The notes below the pieces were generated by a model that had not been told where the DNA came from, did no database searches, and saw only the letters and a program-made list of their open reading frames with translations. A stretch of DNA of 36,364 nucleotides from Verrucomicrobiales bacterium (GTDB taxonomy: Bacteria; Verrucomicrobiota; Verrucomicrobiia; Verrucomicrobiales; V1-33), in NCBI GenBank assembly GCA_947460575.1, contig CANHIJ010000032.1:1-36364 (forward strand), in the 5' to 3' direction. The translations under genes were made by a program, and so were the position numbers. Of the stretch, positions 9,621 to 32,748 are shown one piece after another. Positions within the stretch are counted from its first letter, which is position 1; each line of letters begins with the position of its first letter.

Positions 9621-11582
9621 TCACTTCGCGATGAAATCCGTCGTCTCTACGTTCTTGGTGGCGTCATAGGTGAAACCGCTCAACACAATGCCCGTGACCT
9701 TAAAGGTAAAAGTGCCCGCGTTCTTCGAAGCCGCACTCGTGAAAGCCACCGTGCCCGCAGTGCTAGTCTTGCCACTCACATTGGCCACCGTAAGACCCGA
9801 CCAACTCCCCGTCACCGTGGCATTCGCCTTCACCGCGCCCGCCCCGTCCTTGACTGTCACTATTGCCCTAGCTTGGGTGCCTTTGGTGCTGACAATCTTG
9901 CTCATGGCAATATCGGAAACACTCAGCACCGTGGCTGGATCTACCGGAGCCTTCACCGAAATCACCACCGAAGCCGTTCCGGAAAGCCCCGCGTCGTCGG
10001 AAACCACCAAGGAAGCCGTATACGTCCCCACCGCCGCGTACACGTGGGACGGATTCGCTTCAGCGGAGCCCGCCGTGCCATCCCCAAAGTCCCAATCATA
10101 CGTCAGGGCACTGCCCTCCGCATCGCTCGAACCGACGCTCGAGAAATTCACCGTCAGCGGAACCGTCCCCGTCACCGGTGTGCTCTGCGTGACCACCGCC
10201 ACCGGAGGCTGACCCAAATACGCTGGAACCGTGCCCGTCAGGGTGAATTGCCCCAGACTAGCATAGTCCGTGTAACCCGTAGAGGCCGTGCCCACACCCA
10301 CTCCATCCACCGCGAGGTAATAGGTACCCCCCGTCACCACGGTGCTCAAGCTAGCGCCCAAGGTGCTACTGTTGGCGCTCGCTATCAAATTGCCCACCCC
10401 ATTGTAAAGCGCTAGATTGATATCCAAATTGGCGTCCGGGGAAGCCGTGCCCGCCGTGAAACTCACGGTGCCCGGTCCCACATCCACCCGGTACATGTCG
10501 ACGTCTGTCCGACTGTCGATGATGCCAGTCGCCGAAACCGAAGTCCCCGTCAGGGGAACCGCCGTCAAAATATCATTGCCCGCCAAATCGGCGCTGCGCG
10601 GGATATACCCGTTGATGATCGCAGTGTCGTCTTCTAAATTGTTAGCATTGGCGTACTCCCCTTTGCTGAACTGGGTCACGTTCGCATAATAGCCCACCCC
10701 CATAATCGGCGCCCAGCCATTGTGCCCTTGGTAGTAGGTCGTCCCATTCGTCAGACCATCGTGCTTTAGCGCCACCGTGTGGCCCGCTTCATGGCTCGCG
10801 GCCTCGGCCACGTATTTCGGGAAGCCATTCCCCAATTCCACCGGAAACACAAAAGCCGGAGTGTCCGAATTCCAGGAAAAAGACTGCAAGTAAGCCACCC
10901 CACCAGCCCCCGCGCCCAAAAGATCATAGCTGCTGCCCCCAATCACCATGCGGATCCCATAGGCCGTGTCGCTGGTAGTCGTCTTGCGGAGCGATTCCAA
11001 GGGAGGCTCCGCGGTGGTCACATCCACATCCCACGGGGCGTAGTCCTCACTGACCCGCTTCCAGATTTCCTGAATATTGGCCAACTCCCCCGCGCTGAAA
11101 ACCCCCGGGACGCCATCGGTATCATAGGGCGGCGAAATAAAATCGGCCCCGCCCTTATAGCTGGTATTCCAAGAGGTTCCCGAAGTGGTGTGCCCCGTAA
11201 AGTCCAGATAAATCGTCCGACTCAACCCAGGCTTGCTGTGCAGCAAAAAGGTGTCGCTGGCAGGATAATTCAACAGCGCGTCGCTCGCCGCATTCCCCGC
11301 CGTCGGCGCCTGCGCCGCCATCCCCTCACAGGCAAAAAGTAGGCGGCCGTTCCGGTCGCTTTGCAAATCCCGATCGCTCAGCGCCAAGGACCCCAGCTCC
11401 TGCTCGGTCATGCCATAAAACCGGGCCACCTCCGGCAGCCGACTCCCCAAAGCTCGAATCAAGGCCGAACCCCGCGCCCCTTTGCCAAGCTCAATCGCCG
11501 GAAACGCCCCACCCTCCTGCGCCGCGGCCAAACTAGCCAGCAACCCCACCATCGAGACCTGAAACAACATTAATTTTTTCAC
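9621..11582 (-). CDS. Secreted metzincin-type metalloprotease with PPC, PKD and Ig-like domains (paralogue 1)
   Basis: 653 residues from a GTG at 11582, supported by AAAAGG six bases upstream. The signal peptide is MKKLMLFQVSMVGLLASLAA. The catalytic region has HEAGHTVALKH (H264, E265, H268, H274), the metzincin zinc signature HExxHxxGxxH with Ala for Gly. WAPIMGVGYY follows, a plausible Met-turn. The N-terminal part includes IYLDFTGHTT and YAPWDVDVTT, frequent in this bacterial protease group. After the catalytic domain come a bacterial pre-peptidase C-terminal (PPC) domain at about 340-455, a PKD domain at about 460-545 (YDWDFGDGT, HVYAAVGTYTASLVV), and an Ig-like domain at the end. Probably exported and degrades extracellular protein; the substrate is unknown. 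About 80% identical by eye to the gene at 12228, so a tandem duplication. Confidence 0.85.
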   Translation of the reverse strand: MKKLMLFQVSMVGLLASLAAAQEGGAFPAIELGKGARGSALIRALGSRLPEVARFYGMTEQELGSLALSDRDLQSDRNGRLLFACEGMAAQAPTAGNAASDALLNYPASDTFLLHSKPGLSRTIYLDFTGHTTSGTSWNTSYKGGADFISPPYDTDGVPGVFSAGELANIQEIWKRVSEDYAPWDVDVTTAEPPLESLRKTTTSDTAYGIRMVIGGSSYDLLGAGAGGVAYLQSFSWNSDTPAFVFPVELGNGFPKYVAEAASHEAGHTVALKHDGLTNGTTYYQGHNGWAPIMGVGYYANVTQFSKGEYANANNLEDDTAIINGYIPRSADLAGNDILTAVPLTGTSVSATGIIDSRTDVDMYRVDVGPGTVSFTAGTASPDANLDINLALYNGVGNLIASANSSTLGASLSTVVTGGTYYLAVDGVGVGTASTGYTDYASLGQFTLTGTVPAYLGQPPVAVVTQSTPVTGTVPLTVNFSSVGSSDAEGSALTYDWDFGDGTAGSAEANPSHVYAAVGTYTASLVVSDDAGLSGTASVVISVKAPVDPATVLSVSDIAMSKIVSTKGTQARAIVTVKDGAGAVKANATVTGSWSGLTVANVSGKTSTAGTVAFTSAASKNAGTFTFKVTGIVLSGFTYDATKNVETTDFIAK

Positions 11583-12227: not shown

Positions 12228-14186
12228 CTACTTCACGATAAAGTCAGTCGTCTCAAGGTTCTTGCTGGCGTCGTACGTACACCCGCTCAGGCTGACGCCC
12301 GTGACCGTGAAGACAAAGGTTCCTTTGCTCTTCGTCGCCGCGCTGGAGAAGCTCACCGTGCCCGCCGCGCTCGTCACGCCGCTCCCATTGCCACTCGTCA
12401 GCCCCGACCACGTCCCCGTGACCACCGCATTCGGCTTCACCACCCCGTTGACATCTGTCACCGTCACCAAGGCTTTGGCTTGCGTCCCCTTGGAGCTGAC
12501 CACTTTGCTCATGCCGATGTTAGAAATGCGCACCACCACAGCCTGGATCACCGGTTCCTGCACCGTGATCACCACCGAAGCCGTGCCCGACAGCCCAGTG
12601 CCGTCAAACACCGCCAGCGAAGCCGTGTAATTTCCCGCCGCCGTGTAGACGTGCACCGGATTCGCCTCCGCCGAAGGCGCGCTCCCATCCCCAAAATCCC
12701 AGTCGTAGGTCAGCGCGCTCCCTTCCGGATCGCTCGACCCAGCACTGGAAAAGCTCACCGTCAGCGGCACCGTCCCCGTCAGCGGCGTGCTCTGGCTCAC
12801 CACCGCCACCGGAGGCTGCCCCACCCCCGCAGGCACCGTGCCCGTCAGGCTGAATTGCCCCAGGCTCCCGTAGTCCGTGTAGCCCGTCGACGCCGTGCCG
12901 ACCCCCACCCCGTCAACGGCCACATAGTAGGTCCCCGCCGCCACCGCGCTGCTCAAGCTGGCTCCCAAGGCGGTCGAATCCGCACTGGCGATCAGGTTCC
13001 CCGCCCCGTTATACAACGATAGGCTGATGTCCAGGTTCGCGTCCGGCGAGGCCGTCCCCGCGGTGAAACTCAAGGTCCCCGCGCCCGCCACCACCTTGTA
13101 GATATCCACGTCCGTCCGGCTGTCGATGATCCCCGTGGCCGACACCGAAGTCCCCACCAGCGGAACCGCCGTCAATATGTCGTTCCCCGCCAAATCCGCA
13201 CTCCGCGGTATATACCCATTGATAATCGCGGTGTCGTCCTCTAAGTTGTTAGCATCGGCGTACTCCCCTTTGCTGAACTGAGAGATCGTGGCGTAGTAAC
13301 CCACGCCCATGATCGGCGCCCACCCGTTGTGCCCCTGGTAATAGGCCGTCCCCGTGGTCAAGCCATCGTGCTTCAGCGCCACGGTGTGCCCAACCTCGTG
13401 GCTGATCGCCTCAGCCACATATTTCGGATAACCATTCCCCAACTGCGACGGAAACACAAAGGCCGGCGTGTCCGAGCTCCACGGAAAGGATTGCAGATAC
13501 GCCACCCCGCCCGCCCCCGCGCTCAATAGATCATAGCTGCTTCCCCCAATCACCATCCGAATCCCGTACGCCGTATCCGTCGTGCTCGTCTTCCGCAGCG
13601 ACTCCAGCGGCGGCTCCTCCGTCGTCACGTCCACGTCCCAGGGCGCGTAGTCCTCGCTCACCCGCTTCCAGATCTCCTGCACGTTCGCCAATTCCGCCGC
13701 GCTAAACGCCCCCGGAACCCCATCCACGTCGTACGGCGGCGACACAAAGTCCGCCCCAGACTTGTAGCTCGTATTCCACTGCGTCCCCGAGGTCGTGTGC
13801 CCGGTGAAGTCTAGGTAAATCACCCGGCCCATCCCCGGCTTGCTGTGCAGCAAAAAGCTGTCGCTCGCAGGATAGTTCAATAGGGCGTTGGTCGCCGCAT
13901 TCCCCGCCGTCGGGGCCTGCGCCGTCATCCCCTCGCACGCATACACCAACCGCCCCGCCCGGTCGCTCCGCAAGTCCCGGTCCCGCAGCGCCAGCGACCC
14001 CAACTCCTGCTCCGTCATCCCGTACGCCCGGGCCACTTCCGGCAGCCGACTCCCCAGCGCCCGCACGATGCCCGATCCCCGCGCCCCCTGGCCCAACTGC
14101 AGCCCAGGAAACCCCCCCTCCTGCGCCGCCGCTCCTACTGCCAACCATGCCACCATCGATACCCAACTAAGTGTTATTTTGATCAT
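12228..14186 (-). CDS. Secreted metzincin-type metalloprotease with PPC, PKD and Ig-like domains (paralogue 2)
   Basis: 652 residues from the ATG at 14186 (MIKITLSWVSMVAWLAVGAA, signal peptide). It is collinear with paralogue 1: DFTGHTTSGTQW, YAPWDVDVTTEEPP, zinc motif HEVGHTVALKHDG, Met-turn-like WAPIMGVGYY, PPC domain, PKD domain (YDWDFGDGSAPSAEANPVHVY) and a C-terminal Ig-like domain ending NLETTDFIVK. The two differ mainly at scattered surface positions and in the signal peptide. Silent positions here are more GC-rich than in paralogue 1, so the duplication is not recent. A 17-bp palindrome lies seven bases upstream of the start. Predicted extracellular or outer-surface protease; substrate unknown. 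Confidence 0.85.
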   Translation of the reverse strand: MIKITLSWVSMVAWLAVGAAAQEGGFPGLQLGQGARGSGIVRALGSRLPEVARAYGMTEQELGSLALRDRDLRSDRAGRLVYACEGMTAQAPTAGNAATNALLNYPASDSFLLHSKPGMGRVIYLDFTGHTTSGTQWNTSYKSGADFVSPPYDVDGVPGAFSAAELANVQEIWKRVSEDYAPWDVDVTTEEPPLESLRKTSTTDTAYGIRMVIGGSSYDLLSAGAGGVAYLQSFPWSSDTPAFVFPSQLGNGYPKYVAEAISHEVGHTVALKHDGLTTGTAYYQGHNGWAPIMGVGYYATISQFSKGEYADANNLEDDTAIINGYIPRSADLAGNDILTAVPLVGTSVSATGIIDSRTDVDIYKVVAGAGTLSFTAGTASPDANLDISLSLYNGAGNLIASADSTALGASLSSAVAAGTYYVAVDGVGVGTASTGYTDYGSLGQFSLTGTVPAGVGQPPVAVVSQSTPLTGTVPLTVSFSSAGSSDPEGSALTYDWDFGDGSAPSAEANPVHVYTAAGNYTASLAVFDGTGLSGTASVVITVQEPVIQAVVVRISNIGMSKVVSSKGTQAKALVTVTDVNGVVKPNAVVTGTWSGLTSGNGSGVTSAAGTVSFSSAATKSKGTFVFTVTGVSLSGCTYDASKNLETTDFIVK

Positions 14187-27432: not shown

Positions 27433-28602
27433 TTGTCTTCCTCTCCGCCCTCCTCCCCCCGCGGCCCCAGCCCGCTCCTCCAAATCGCTCTCTACCTCGC
27501 CTCCGTTCTCCTCCTCGGCGCCCTCCTCGCCCCCGTCCTCTACGCCTCCGGAAAATGGCTCGCCGCCCTCCTCGTCAGCTTTAAGCAAACTCAAACCCCA
27601 CTCCTCGGCTGGGTCGCCAACAAACTAACAATCCACGAGTTCGACAGCTACTTCAACCGCGCCTTCCTCGTCGCCGCCCTCGGCCTCCTCTGGCCCTTTC
27701 TCAAGTGGATGCGCCTCTCCCGCCACGCCCTCGGCCTCGCCCCCAACCCCCTCAAGCTGGCCGACTACCTCATGGGCCTCCTCATCGCCGGAGGCCTCCT
27801 CGCCACCATGGGCCTCGCCCTCCTCCAAATCGGCGCCTTCACCGCCAAACCCCACCCCGACTGGTCGGCCCTCCTCACTCAAGCCACCCTCGCCGCCCTC
27901 GGCGCCTCCCTCATCGAAGAATGGCTCTTCCGCGGCATCTTCCTCGGCGTCGCCCTCCGCGCCTCCTCCCCCGCCAAGGCCATCGTCTTCGTCGCCGCCC
28001 TCTTCTCCATCCTCCACCTCATCCAAGCCCCTGACCTCAACGCCAAGGACCGCCCCACCAGGCTCCAAGCCGCCGCCCTCCGCTCCGCCGACTGGCCCGC
28101 CCTTGCCGCCCAACACGCTGCCAACCCCGCCCAAAACGACTGGCTCACCGACCCCTCCCTGGCCCGCTTCGCCCCCTCCCACATCGGCCCCACCTCTGGC
28201 TTCGCCATGACCGCCGAAATCTTCCGCCGCCTCGCCCGCCCAGCCCTCTTCCTCTCCGAATTCCTCACCCTCTTCGCCATCGGCCTCATCCTCGCCCTGG
28301 CCCGCACCCGCACCGCCTCCCTCTGGCTCCCCCTCGGCCTCCACTCCGGCTGGATTTTTATGAACACCCTCTACATGGGCTCCACCCTCACCACCAAAGC
28401 CCTCAAGCGCGGCGAATTCAACCTCGGCTCCGGCGACTCCGCCATCCCCCTCATCGGAGCCCAACTCAAAATCGGCCTCCTCCCCCTCGCCGTCCTCCTC
28501 CTCAGCGGCCTCGCTGTCCTCTGGTGGCTCCGCCTCCGCCTCACCAAGTTGCCCTCTTCCCCGCCATGCCCTCCCTCGCCCCCCTCCGCAGCTTCGCCCT
28601 AG
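27433..28602 (+). CDS. CPBP family intramembrane metalloprotease
   Basis: 389 residues from a TTG at 27433, the only sensible start because the next in-frame ATG is at residue 92, inside the fold; this start is inferred. Multiple membrane helices carry the CPBP/Rce1 motifs: E162-E163 with R167 in IEEWLFRGIFLG, FSILH (H195), and LGLHSGWIFMN (H304). Between motif 2 and motif 3 there is an unusual soluble insertion of about 70 residues (about 198-270: NAKDRPTRLQAAAL...). Proteins of this family cleave prenylated substrates in eukaryotes; in bacteria they have roles in bacteriocin immunity and stress, mostly undefined. The stop codon lies 37 bp inside the next gene, so the two are probably co-transcribed. 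Confidence 0.82.
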   Translation: MSSSPPSSPRGPSPLLQIALYLASVLLLGALLAPVLYASGKWLAALLVSFKQTQTPLLGWVANKLTIHEFDSYFNRAFLVAALGLLWPFLKWMRLSRHALGLAPNPLKLADYLMGLLIAGGLLATMGLALLQIGAFTAKPHPDWSALLTQATLAALGASLIEEWLFRGIFLGVALRASSPAKAIVFVAALFSILHLIQAPDLNAKDRPTRLQAAALRSADWPALAAQHAANPAQNDWLTDPSLARFAPSHIGPTSGFAMTAEIFRRLARPALFLSEFLTLFAIGLILALARTRTASLWLPLGLHSGWIFMNTLYMGSTLTTKALKRGEFNLGSGDSAIPLIGAQLKIGLLPLAVLLLSGLAVLWWLRLRLTKLPSSPPCPPSPPSAASP

Positions 28603-29306
28603 CCGCCCTCAACCTCCTCTACCCCCCGCGCTGCGCCGCCTGCCTCGCCCGCCTTCCCGCCCCGGGCGATTTCTGCCCCCCCTGCGCCGCCCAACTCCAA
28701 CCCATCGACGGCCCCCACTGCCGCACCTGCAGCGAACCCTTCTCCGGCCGCCTCGCCGCCCCCTTCGCCTGCCCCAACTGCCGCGGCCAATCCTTCGCCT
28801 TCGACTGCGCCCTCTCCGCCTGGCGCAGCTCCGGCCCCCTCCGCGAGGCCATCCACCGCTTCAAATACGGCCGCCACCTTCACCTCCGCCTCCCCCTCGC
28901 CCACAAGCTGCGCGATGCCCTCGCCGACCCCCGCTTCCCCCCTGCCCCCGCCGCCAACTGGTTTCTCGTCCCCGTCCCCCTCCACCCCCGCCGCTTGCGC
29001 GAGCGCCGCTTCAACCAGTCCGCCGAACTCGCCCTCACCCTCTCCAAACTCACCGGCCTTCCCTGCCGCCACCTCCTCCGCCGCACCCGCTACACCTCCT
29101 CCCAGGCCGCCCTCAATCGCCCAGAGCGCCTCCGCAACCTCGCCGGCGCCTTCTCCCTCAAACCCCGCACCCCCCTCCCGCCCCACGCCGGTTTCCTCCT
29201 CGTCGACGACGTCTTCACCACCGGCTCCACCGCCCACGAATGCGCCGCCGTTCTCAAAAAAGCCGGAGCCGGCCCCGTCATTGTCCTCACCGTGGCCCGC
29301 GGCTAA
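28566..29306 (+). CDS. comF: ComF-type phosphoribosyltransferase
   Basis: 246 residues from the ATG at 28566 (MPSLAPLRSFALAAL), overlapping the CPBP gene by 37 bp in another frame. Two cysteine pairs form a zinc-finger-like N-terminus: PPRCAACLARL...DFCPPC and PHCRTC...ACPNCRG. HRFKYGRH begins the ComF core, then PVPLHPRRLRERRFNQSAELA, and the PRPP-binding loop FLLVDDVFTTGSTAHECA of type I phosphoribosyltransferases. In naturally competent bacteria ComF supports DNA uptake or recombination; here there are no other competence genes, so the role is open. Its stop overlaps the convergent oxyR stop by 4 bp (CTAA). Confidence 0.9.
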   Translation: MPSLAPLRSFALAALNLLYPPRCAACLARLPAPGDFCPPCAAQLQPIDGPHCRTCSEPFSGRLAAPFACPNCRGQSFAFDCALSAWRSSGPLREAIHRFKYGRHLHLRLPLAHKLRDALADPRFPPAPAANWFLVPVPLHPRRLRERRFNQSAELALTLSKLTGLPCRHLLRRTRYTSSQAALNRPERLRNLAGAFSLKPRTPLPPHAGFLLVDDVFTTGSTAHECAAVLKKAGAGPVIVLTVARG

Positions 29307-30190
29307 TCCCCGGCCCCACCTCTCGGCAGCAGCCCCAGCAGCGCCGCCGCCGCCCGCCCCAGCGGTCGCCCCCTCGCCCACCACGCAATAATCTCCCGCC
29401 GCGGCCCCGGCGCCCGAAACGACCGGTACTCCACTCCCCGCTGTGCCCCCTCCCGCGCCGCCATCGCCGGAATCAGCGATAACCCAAAACCCGTCCCCAC
29501 CAACGCCTGCACCGTCTCCAACTGCGCACTGCTAAAACTAATCGCCAGCCCCCCCCCAGGCCGCCCGCAAAACTGCCTCACCTGATCCCCCAAACAGTGC
29601 CCCTCCTTCATCACGATCAGCCGCTCCCCCTCCAAGTCCTCCAACCCCACCAACTCCCGCCGCAACAACCGATGCCCCATCGGCAGCGCCAACAATAATT
29701 CCTCCCCCATCACCTGCCGAATCTCCAGACGCTCATCCACCACTGGATGGCTCCCAATCGCAAAGTCGATCTCGCAGTTCAGCGACAACTCCAACAGCCG
29801 CGCCGTCGTGTCCTCCTCAATCACCAACTCCACCCCAGGATACCGCCCCGCAAATCCCACGATCAACTCCGGCAACAAATACGGCGCAATCGTCGGCAAT
29901 ACCCCCACCCGCACCTCCCCGCGCAGCAATTCCCGCATCTCCCCCACCTCCCGCACCGCCGCCTCCGCCTCCTCCAAAATCCGTCGCGCCCGCCGCACAA
30001 AGGCCACCCCAGCCGCCGTCAACCGCGCCTCCCGCCCCAGCCGATCAAATAACCGCTCCCCCAATTCCTCCTCCAATTTCTGCACCTGCTGGCTCAACGA
30101 CGGCTGCGATACATGGCAATGCCCCGCCGCTCGCGAAAAATTCCCCGTCCGCACCACCGCCACCACGTACCGAAGTTGCTGCATTTCCAT
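29303..30190 (-). CDS. oxyR: Hydrogen-peroxide-sensing LysR-type regulator OxyR
   Basis: 295 residues from the ATG at 30190 (MEMQQLRYVVAVVR); the ATG at 30184 would also work. The LysR helix-turn-helix is at about 6-60 (NFSRAAGHCHVSQPSLSQQVQKLE). The effector domain holds C199 and C208 in KEGHCLGDQVRQFCG, the same spacing and numbering as the redox pair of E. coli OxyR. VGVLPTIAPYLLP and GFGLSLIPAMA are also OxyR-like. On oxidation by peroxide the disulfide activates OxyR, which switches on defence genes. An OxyR-type site covers the start codon, and TATAGT (complement of 30199-30204) would be a -10 just ahead of it. The mRNA may therefore be leaderless and autorepressed. Confidence 0.95.
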   Translation of the reverse strand: MEMQQLRYVVAVVRTGNFSRAAGHCHVSQPSLSQQVQKLEEELGERLFDRLGREARLTAAGVAFVRRARRILEEAEAAVREVGEMRELLRGEVRVGVLPTIAPYLLPELIVGFAGRYPGVELVIEEDTTARLLELSLNCEIDFAIGSHPVVDERLEIRQVMGEELLLALPMGHRLLRRELVGLEDLEGERLIVMKEGHCLGDQVRQFCGRPGGGLAISFSSAQLETVQALVGTGFGLSLIPAMAAREGAQRGVEYRSFRAPGPRREIIAWWARGRPLGRAAAALLGLLPRGGAGD

Positions 30191-30225
30191 AGCTCTAGAC
30201 TATACCCCCGACAGGAAAGATGTAT
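30189..30225. promoter_or_regulatory. Near-consensus OxyR operator overlapping the oxyR start codon
   Basis: ATAG (30189-30192), N7, CTAT (30200-30203), N7, ACAG (30211-30214), N7, GTAT (30222-30225). This matches the OxyR consensus ATAG-N7-CTAT-N7-ATAG-N7-CTAT at 14 of 16 positions with exact spacing. It sits between oxyR and the divergent leader, and TATAGT (complement strand) inside it could be the oxyR -10. Confidence 0.75.
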
Positions 30226-30403
30226 TTCAACCTCGAGATTCTCGCGCCATGTTCTTTTCATACCCGTCCTCCCCACGCCCCCCCTCACCCCACCTCCCTA
30301 GCGCCACCCCCCGCCCCCTCTTACTCCTTTCCGGCTCCGCCGGCTTCCCATTCCCCTAACTCGTCAGCGGGGTCGCGCCAAAGCGCGGCCCCGCTTTCTT
30401 TTT
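30226..30403 (+). ncRNA. Candidate OxyS-like small RNA or attenuator leader
   Basis: A region with no credible protein frame on the + strand, beginning beside the OxyR operator and ending at a strong terminator (30366-30403). Small perfect hairpins lie on the way: CGAGA-T-TCTCG at 30233-30243 and CCGGC-TCC-GCCGG at 30331-30343. Long C/U-rich single-stranded stretches lie between. The placement, divergent from oxyR and controlled by OxyR, is that of E. coli oxyS. Alternatively it is the untranslated leader of the nuclease-ligase gene, which starts about 10 bases after the terminator. No start site is proven. Confidence 0.35.
30366..30403 (+). terminator. Strong intrinsic terminator directly upstream of the nuclease-ligase gene
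   Basis: AGCGGGGTCGCGC at 30366-30378 pairs with GCGCGGCCCCGCT at 30383-30395 (13 pairs, one of them G-U) around loop CAAA. TTCTTTTT follows (30396-30403). No protein gene on the + strand lies before it back to the oxyR start. Confidence 0.8.
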
Positions 30404-30413
30404 CACCCCAGCC

Positions 30414-32642
30414 CTGAAAACGCCCCTTCCCTATCGCTTCCTCGGCGGCAGCCTCCTCCTTCCCGAGCCCCAGCTCTGGCTCGACGCCCGCCGCCCCCAA
30501 GACTGCTCCTTCGTCTCCCACGCCCACGCCGACCACTTCGCCCGCCACCGCCGCATCCTCTGCTCGCTCCCCACCGCCCACCTCCTCCGCGCCCGCTTCG
30601 CCCCTAAGGCCGAAATCATCGCCCTCGATTGGGACCAACCCTGGGACCACCTCGGCTACCGCGTCGTCCTGACCCCCGCAGGCCACATCCTCGGCAGCGC
30701 CATGATCCACCTCACCCGCCTCGCCGACGGGGCCAGCCTCCTCTACACTGGCGACTTCAAACTCCGCCCCAGCCTCACCGCCGAGCCCGCCCGCCCCCTC
30801 CCCGCGGACACCGTGATCATGGAGTGCACCTTCGGCCGCCCCCACTTCTGCTTCCCGCCCCTCACCGACACCGCCGCCGCCATCCAGCGCTGGTGCCGCA
30901 ACGCCCTCGATCACGGCGAAACCCCCATCCTCCTCGGCTACTCCCTCGGCAAGGCCCAGGAAATCCAAGCCCTCCTCAGCGGCGGCCATTTTCCCATCGC
31001 GGTCCCCCCGCCCGTGGCCGCCATGAACCGCGCCTACCAATCCCTCGGCGTCCCCCTCCCCCCCTGGGAACTCTACCGCGGCGACCCCCGCGGCCGCGTC
31101 CTCGTCTTCCCCCCCCAGTCCGCCTCCGCCCTCCACCCCATCGCCCCCAAACTCACCGCCCTCCTCAGCGGCTGGGCCCTCTCCCCAGCCGCCCGCTTCT
31201 CCTACCACGTCGACGCCGCCTTCCCCCTCAGCGACCACGCCGATTACCCCGAACTCCTCGAACTCCTCGAACTCACCCGCCCCCACACCGTCCTCGCCAC
31301 CCACGGCGACAGCGCCGCCTTCACCCGCGACCTCCGCCAGCGCGGCTGGAACGCCTGGTCCCTCGCCGGCTCCGACCAACTCGAACTTTCCCTCCCCTCC
31401 ACCCTTCCTTCCCCCGCCCCCGCCCCTCCAGAGCCCTCCCGCGACGGCTCCTTCGGCGCCTTCGGCACCCTCTGCGAAACCCTCGCCGCCACCTCCGGCC
31501 GCCCCGCCCAAATCGCTCTCCTCGCCGACCACTTCCGCCTGCTCGCCGACCCCGCGGCACTCGCCACCTCGGCCCGGTTCCTGGCCGCCCAATCCGCCGC
31601 CGACCCCACACTTCGTCTCTCCCCCGCCATCCTCCGCCACGCCCTTCGCCAAGCCTCCGGCCTTCCCGCGGCCGCCTTCAAAATCCTCGCCCGCTCCCAA
31701 GCCCACCTCGGCGACACCGCTTGCCTCGCCCTGCAAAACCGCAGCGCCCCCCAGCCCTGGACCCTCCAGGAAATGCAGCACCTCTTCGACCGCCTCCACC
31801 TCGCCTCAGGCCCTTCCGCCCAAGCGGAACTCCTCGCCCACGCCTTCCTCCACCTCTCCCCCCGCAGCGCCCGCCACGCCCTCCACATCCTCACCGGCCA
31901 CTCCGCCGCCGCCCTCAAAGAGGGCCTCCTCGAAGACGCCCTCGCCGCCGCCTTCCACCGCTCCCCACTCGAACTCCGCGCCGCCCACCTCCTCTCTGGC
32001 GACATCGGCGAAACCGCCCAGCGCGCCCAAACCGGCTCCACCGCCCCCGCCTCCCTGCACCCCTTCCGCCCCCTGGCCCCCATGCTCCCCTCCCCCGCCC
32101 CCGCCTCCTTCGGAAAAACCTTTCTCCCCCCACCCCACCCCGCACTCTGGCTCGAACCCAAAGCCGAAGGCTCCCGCGCCCAACTCCACCGCACCTCCGC
32201 CCGCGCCTCCCTCTTCTCCCCCACCCTCCGCTCCCTCGACCTCAGTTTTTCTGCATTCCTCCAGCGCGCCCGCTCCCTCGACCGCGACGTCATCCTCGAC
32301 GGCCAACTCCTCCCCTCCCCCCACCCCCCAAAACCCTCCCGCGCTCACGCCGACCTCTTCCTCCCCGACGCCCCGCCCCAGCGCTTCCTCGTCTTCGACC
32401 TCCTCTGGCTCGACGGCCAAACCCTCCTCCACCTCCCCCTTGAGGACCGCCGCCGCTGCCTCGAAACCCTCGTCCTCCCCCCAGGTTTTCAGCTCAGCGC
32501 CGTCTACCGCGCCGCTTCCCCAAAAACCCTCGATGCCGCCCGCCAAGCCGCCCAAGCCCAAGGCCACCCCCACCTCATCGCCAAGGATCCCGCCAGCCCC
32601 TACACCCCCGGCCAGCGCAGCCCAGCCTGGCTCGTTCTCTAA
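30414..32642 (+). CDS. Metallo-beta-lactamase/beta-CASP nuclease fused to a degenerate ATP-dependent DNA ligase-like domain
   Basis: 742 residues if started at CTG 30414; the frame is open back to a stop at 30357 but contains no ATG, GTG or TTG, and the metal motif lies upstream of the first ATG (30702). The N-terminal half is a DNA-ligase-associated exonuclease: SHAHADHF (H36, H38, D40, H41), AGHILGSAM (H91), LYTGDF (D114), ECTFG, and FPLSDHADYPELLELL with LATHGD. From about residue 340 it resembles the ligase N-terminal helical domain (FGAFGTLCETLAATSGRPAQ...). It then becomes a nucleotidyltransferase-like domain: motif I EPKAEGSRAQ (K583; E585 replaces the usual Asp), motif III DGQL (Gln631 for Glu), motif IV-like HLIAKDP (K724). 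It ends at WLVL, without motif V lysine and without the OB fold. The nuclease may be active; ligation is doubtful. Confidence 0.8.
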   Translation: MKTPLPYRFLGGSLLLPEPQLWLDARRPQDCSFVSHAHADHFARHRRILCSLPTAHLLRARFAPKAEIIALDWDQPWDHLGYRVVLTPAGHILGSAMIHLTRLADGASLLYTGDFKLRPSLTAEPARPLPADTVIMECTFGRPHFCFPPLTDTAAAIQRWCRNALDHGETPILLGYSLGKAQEIQALLSGGHFPIAVPPPVAAMNRAYQSLGVPLPPWELYRGDPRGRVLVFPPQSASALHPIAPKLTALLSGWALSPAARFSYHVDAAFPLSDHADYPELLELLELTRPHTVLATHGDSAAFTRDLRQRGWNAWSLAGSDQLELSLPSTLPSPAPAPPEPSRDGSFGAFGTLCETLAATSGRPAQIALLADHFRLLADPAALATSARFLAAQSAADPTLRLSPAILRHALRQASGLPAAAFKILARSQAHLGDTACLALQNRSAPQPWTLQEMQHLFDRLHLASGPSAQAELLAHAFLHLSPRSARHALHILTGHSAAALKEGLLEDALAAAFHRSPLELRAAHLLSGDIGETAQRAQTGSTAPASLHPFRPLAPMLPSPAPASFGKTFLPPPHPALWLEPKAEGSRAQLHRTSARASLFSPTLRSLDLSFSAFLQRARSLDRDVILDGQLLPSPHPPKPSRAHADLFLPDAPPQRFLVFDLLWLDGQTLLHLPLEDRRRCLETLVLPPGFQLSAVYRAASPKTLDAARQAAQAQGHPHLIAKDPASPYTPGQRSPAWLVL

Positions 32643-32643: not shown

Positions 32644-32748
32644 CCTAAAAGCGCGAGTTGAAACTCAACCACGGGGCCTTTTTCGTGATAACTGCGGGGA
32701 ATCAGCCCTTTTTTCCGCCCCAGGAGACTCACCCTTTGGGTGAGTCTC
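32644..32748 (+). repeat. Family B repeat, copy 1
   Basis: Starts CCTAAAAGCGCGAGTTGAA, continues through a conserved TTTTTCGTGATAA, and ends in the perfect hairpin GAGACTCACCC-TTT-GGGTGAGTCTC (32724-32748). It aligns over its whole length of about 105 bp with the complement of 33026-33131 with a single gap. Confidence 0.75.

Follow-up and report, generated by a model that had tools for sequence, protein, structure and literature searches.

Between oxyR and an exonuclease-ligase gene of a Verrucomicrobiales genome lie a well-supported OxyR operator and a bona fide orphan terminator, with no coding signal between them. Our best explanation, which we put forward tentatively, is that the two elements are the remains of an OxyR-controlled catalase or peroxidase unit whose coding part is gone. 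The window analysed here (36,364 nt) is one whole contig of a 4.2-Mb assembly (216 contigs, approximately 90% complete); both of its flanks are nearest to one and the same genus, and a chimeric contig is not indicated. Throughout, G000 denotes the genome carrying the window, G003 and G004 belong to the same genus, and L-numbers designate relatives compared at oxyR. A sequence-only reading of this interval had proposed that the terminator either ends an analogue of the small RNA OxyS or acts as an attenuator of the downstream gene; its structural observation was right, and both functions are unproven. In our ranking the collapsed unit comes first, followed by a terminator of the comF operon, an attenuator and an OxyS-like RNA.

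The terminator, located at 30366-30403 on the + strand, was characterized by sequence, folding, shuffling and a genome survey. Its 13-bp stem (30366-30395; 11 G-C pairs, one A-U and one G-U) reads AGCGGGGTCGCGC-CAAA-GCGCGGCCCCGCT, in which CAAA forms the loop, and is followed by TTTCTTTTTC, with the U-tract extending to 30403. By itself the hairpin has a folding energy of −28.3 kcal/mol, and none of 30 dinucleotide shuffles of the whole window (both strands) gave a 13-bp stem with a T-tract. A stable G+C-rich hairpin with a U-tract directly 3' is therefore present beyond chance expectation, as is characteristic of intrinsic (Rho-independent) terminators, and the terminator described from the letters alone is real. 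On the opposite strand no T-run follows the stem, so the hairpin would act on + strand transcription only. A repeat element was also considered and set aside, the hairpin core having no second exact copy in the genome.

Strong terminators were surveyed in 1.43 Mb of the 4.2-Mb assembly, where a simple codon model called 956 genes; because this gene caller is crude, the resulting counts are approximate. Forty hairpins had a stem of 10 bp or more and a T-rich tail. Nineteen of these were intergenic and lay no more than 80 nt past a same-strand stop codon (median 37 nt); most of the others are intragenic or poor-tailed and probably chance matches. The window terminator is among the few strong intergenic ones in the survey without a same-strand gene just upstream, and by these genome statistics it is an orphan: its nearest upstream gene is oxyR, on the opposite strand, and comF lies 1060 nt away. 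Candidates among the other orphan strong terminators were checked as markers of known ncRNA genes, and no Rfam gene was found there.

The statement that no protein gene precedes the terminator holds within 1 kb on the + strand; farther upstream, comF (28524-29306, +) is convergent with oxyR, and read-through from it may reach the terminator. Were transcription from comF to run antisense through oxyR and end at 30403, the hairpin would be the terminator of the comF operon. We consider this unlikely. It accords with the overlap of the comF and oxyR stop codons and with the finding that no further + strand terminator was detected between comF and 30366, but a distance of 1060 nt would be exceptional in comparison with the 19 intergenic terminators described above, and a terminator after comF is not required because most genes of this genome have no strong one. 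At the overlapping ends of the two genes (window 29264-29306), a weak terminator-like site for oxyR lies within the end of comF.

The operator, ATAG-N7-CTAT-N7-ACAG-N7-GTAT, occupies 30189-30225 and abuts the oxyR start codon. It has the same four half-sites and spacing as the OxyR operators of Proteobacteria (ATAG-N7-CTAT-N7-ATAG-N7-CTAT; PMC5720770), although its third and fourth half-sites read ACAG and GTAT. No other 0-mismatch site exists in the 4.2-Mb assembly, in which two-mismatch sites are no commoner than in a reversed control. Among 13 relatives searched, a perfect operator occurs at most once per genome and lies beside the oxyR ortholog in four of five cases, and when the sequences are aligned without gaps, starting at the oxyR start codon, eleven relatives show the operator at an equal offset. 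Taken together, four ATAG/CTAT-type half-sites with 7-nt spacing, the position adjoining oxyR and the conservation in relatives argue strongly for a genuine OxyR operator, in agreement with the earlier suggestion of such a site near the terminator.

The adjoining oxyR gene (29303-30190, − strand) was assigned from NCBIfam, Pfam and cysteine positions. It encodes a LysR-family protein that carries the peroxide-sensing cysteines Cys199 and Cys208 and whose top NCBIfam match is OxyR, at a score under the curated cutoff. The sequence TTTCAAC next to the operator reads TTGAAA on the oxyR strand and fits the −35 element of oxyR itself, and in relatives a −10-like hexamer stands 17 nt from this TTGAAA on the oxyR strand, near the oxyR start codon; conservation of the operator region may therefore be owed to oxyR no less than to the divergent gene. 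The promoter-like element of the relatives, TTGAAA-17-TAcgAT on the oxyR strand (at the place of window 30190-30231), lies partly over the operator, with few bases left to the start codon, and the oxyR mRNA may be nearly leaderless. Two katG genes are found elsewhere in G000 (C5:41071-43233 and C125:6515-8674), neither with a recognizable OxyR operator, and the sole recognizable operator of this genome faces no antioxidant gene.

The eleven operator-bearing relatives show what may once have occupied the divergent slot: it contains katG or a catalase gene in six, a catalase tail in three and an unidentified protein in two. katG is divergent from oxyR in L047, L082 and L087, and a catalase gene in L083, L084 and L085 (PF00199 was tested on L083, the other two being assigned by similarity). 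With these oxyR-katG and oxyR-catalase pairs of related Verrucomicrobia the window shares an orthologous OxyR, the operator and its offset, whereas its divergent gene is missing and the terminator alone is left. The slot of L092-L094, three species from a single genus that is not the window's, holds only a 106-residue Catalase-rel protein (PF06628, E 1.9e-11), which aligns to residues 419-479 of the 487-residue L083 catalase and has a strong 10-bp terminator 3' of its gene. This fragment may represent an intermediate stage of the collapse proposed for the window. The 106-residue protein is conserved across the three species and faces the OxyR operator in each.

In G003 the divergent gene is likewise absent and the operator is degraded. 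The window thus fits a putative loss series from intact catalase through catalase tail to empty unit. Since no catalase or KatG sequence was detected in the interval, where catalase was the protein tested, we infer the loss from the neighbouring genomes. Counting against a collapse, the slot of L095 and L096 holds, beside the operator, an unidentified protein of 454 residues. In its favour, a di-haem cytochrome c peroxidase gene occupies the slot in L049, which has a more distant oxyR ortholog and no clear operator, and terminators of 13-17 bp follow several katG genes in the family, 14-38 nt past the stop codon. An origin from the katG terminator of the G005 or G000 type was rejected as the sequences differ, and no strong terminator closely follows the intact catalase genes of L083-L085; the window terminator may therefore be of other origin.

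According to the collapsed-unit explanation, the ancestor would have carried oxyR, the operator and a divergent catalase or peroxidase gene. The coding part would then have disappeared in G000, and the operator and the terminator would have stayed, the operator at least because the promoter of oxyR itself overlaps it. The terminator would now stand approximately 140 nt past the predicted divergent start, and polymerase arriving from a weakened OxyR-facing promoter, or antisense from comF, would stop at 30403, the product being short and untranslated. Read-through would be the way to reach the exonuclease-ligase gene that now adjoins.

The divergent promoter of the relatives consists of TTCAAC, a spacer of 17 nt and an AT-rich hexamer. 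At the corresponding place in the window (30226-30254, +), located by ungapped alignment, the hexamer reads ATGTTC, and the divergent −10 element thus appears degraded. From the spacing, a transcript would be predicted to start at 30261 and to be untranslated and approximately 140 nt long at most (predicted length, approximately 143 nt). The tract from 30261 to 30365 is C-rich and G-poor and has no coding signal; over 30261-30366, C makes up 59% and G 10%, and 19 of 5217 intergenic windows are as strongly skewed. Small proteins were considered for the ORFs 30249-30359 (36 aa) and 30220-30417 (65 aa) and rejected, their coding scores being reached by 15% and 55% of shuffled sequences respectively. 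The two perfect hairpins noticed earlier in this interval do exist, with a 4-bp stem at 30234-30244 (CGAG-ATT-CTCG, from sequence) and a 5-bp stem at 30331-30343 (CCGGC-TCC-GCCGG, from sequence and fold), and both are small and unremarkable.

The 109-nt OxyS RNA of Escherichia coli (PMC5793797) is encoded divergently from oxyR (PMC7967276), and the window likewise has a short unit divergent from oxyR that faces OxyR sites. An OxyR-induced regulatory RNA working like OxyS would be faced by the only perfect operator of the genome, and the RNA of approximately 143 nt predicted here folds better than shuffled sequences, chiefly owing to the terminator, and has a C/U-rich single-stranded part. Nevertheless, we regard such an RNA as decidedly improbable. 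Unlike oxyS, the unit, known from sequence alone, has a −10 element that appears degraded; a search for the leader in 387 genomes of the order returned short, chance-level matches only, so that the region did not prove conserved; and an Rfam scan, at the gathering score and then at E up to 5, gave no family match, the OxyS model included. The analogy with OxyS suggested by the sequence-only reading accordingly found no backing. A sub-threshold RsmY-like Rfam match on the minus strand was taken as chance.

Downstream, the exonuclease-ligase gene (30414-32642, +) begins 10 bases after the 3' end of the terminator, as had been noted, if the likely start codon CTG at 30414 is used. The frame contains no ATG, GTG or TTG before 30702, and CTG is preferred because a start at 30702 would remove the HAHADH metal-binding motif; G004 has CTG AAA ACC CCC at the equivalent position. 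Every hexamer in 30340-30430 lacks A at position 2, T at position 6 or both, and hence no sigma70-like −10 element is seen past the terminator. Since no sigma70-like promoter is visible (other promoter types are possible), the gene may need read-through.

This part of the attenuator proposal stands, and the late in-frame start codons and likely CTG start also favour it. That the gene is expressed only upon read-through under some signal is, all the same, improbable in our estimation. The 5' arm can pair with the leader, but 24% of shuffled leaders match the total energy of this pairing and 65% its gain, which leaves the antiterminator without support; coding scores give no leader peptide signal, and neither Rfam nor the 387 genomes reveal a conserved ligand-binding leader. 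A conserved leader of the exonuclease gene was rejected on comparison with 29 relatives, none of which has this terminator just before the gene. It also speaks against an attenuator that the downstream gene is decaying in its ligase half.

The gene product keeps the domain order and exonuclease motifs of the ligase-associated exonuclease (TIGR04122) fused to an ATP-dependent DNA ligase. It differs from that fusion in its ligase half, where motif I is changed from KxDG to KAEG, motif III from DGE to DGQ and motif IV from EG to PH; the protein stops at motif V, the lysines of which are missing together with the C-terminal domain. The motif names are those in general use for ATP-dependent ligases. 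With its nucleotidyltransferase motifs altered and its C-terminal domain gone, the protein does not qualify as a cisplatin-response ATP-dependent DNA ligase (TIGR04120). Identity to G004 is 68% in the exonuclease half and 47% and 44% in two ligase parts, compared with 64% and 69% for the same ligase parts between G003 and G004. These comparisons indicate that the ligase half (31404-32642) is decaying, and that the exonuclease half is conserved. A second ligase of this family was sought in G000 and not found; the associated helicase is present there as two pieces at contig ends.

If the collapsed-unit explanation is true, the window offers a natural case of a gene-less promoter-terminator pair arising next to a stress regulator, and new small RNAs could conceivably originate in this way. 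It is very improbable that this has already happened here, with the OxyR-activated promoter, joined directly to the terminator by loss of a catalase gene, giving a peroxide-induced ncRNA whose read-through would supply a DNA-repair exonuclease. Elsewhere in the window, a hairpin GACTCACCC-TTT-GGGTGAGTC is found at 32726-32746, in the long intergenic region past the exonuclease-ligase gene, and the minus strand carries tandem genes for two similar large proteins (9621-11582 and 12228-14186).
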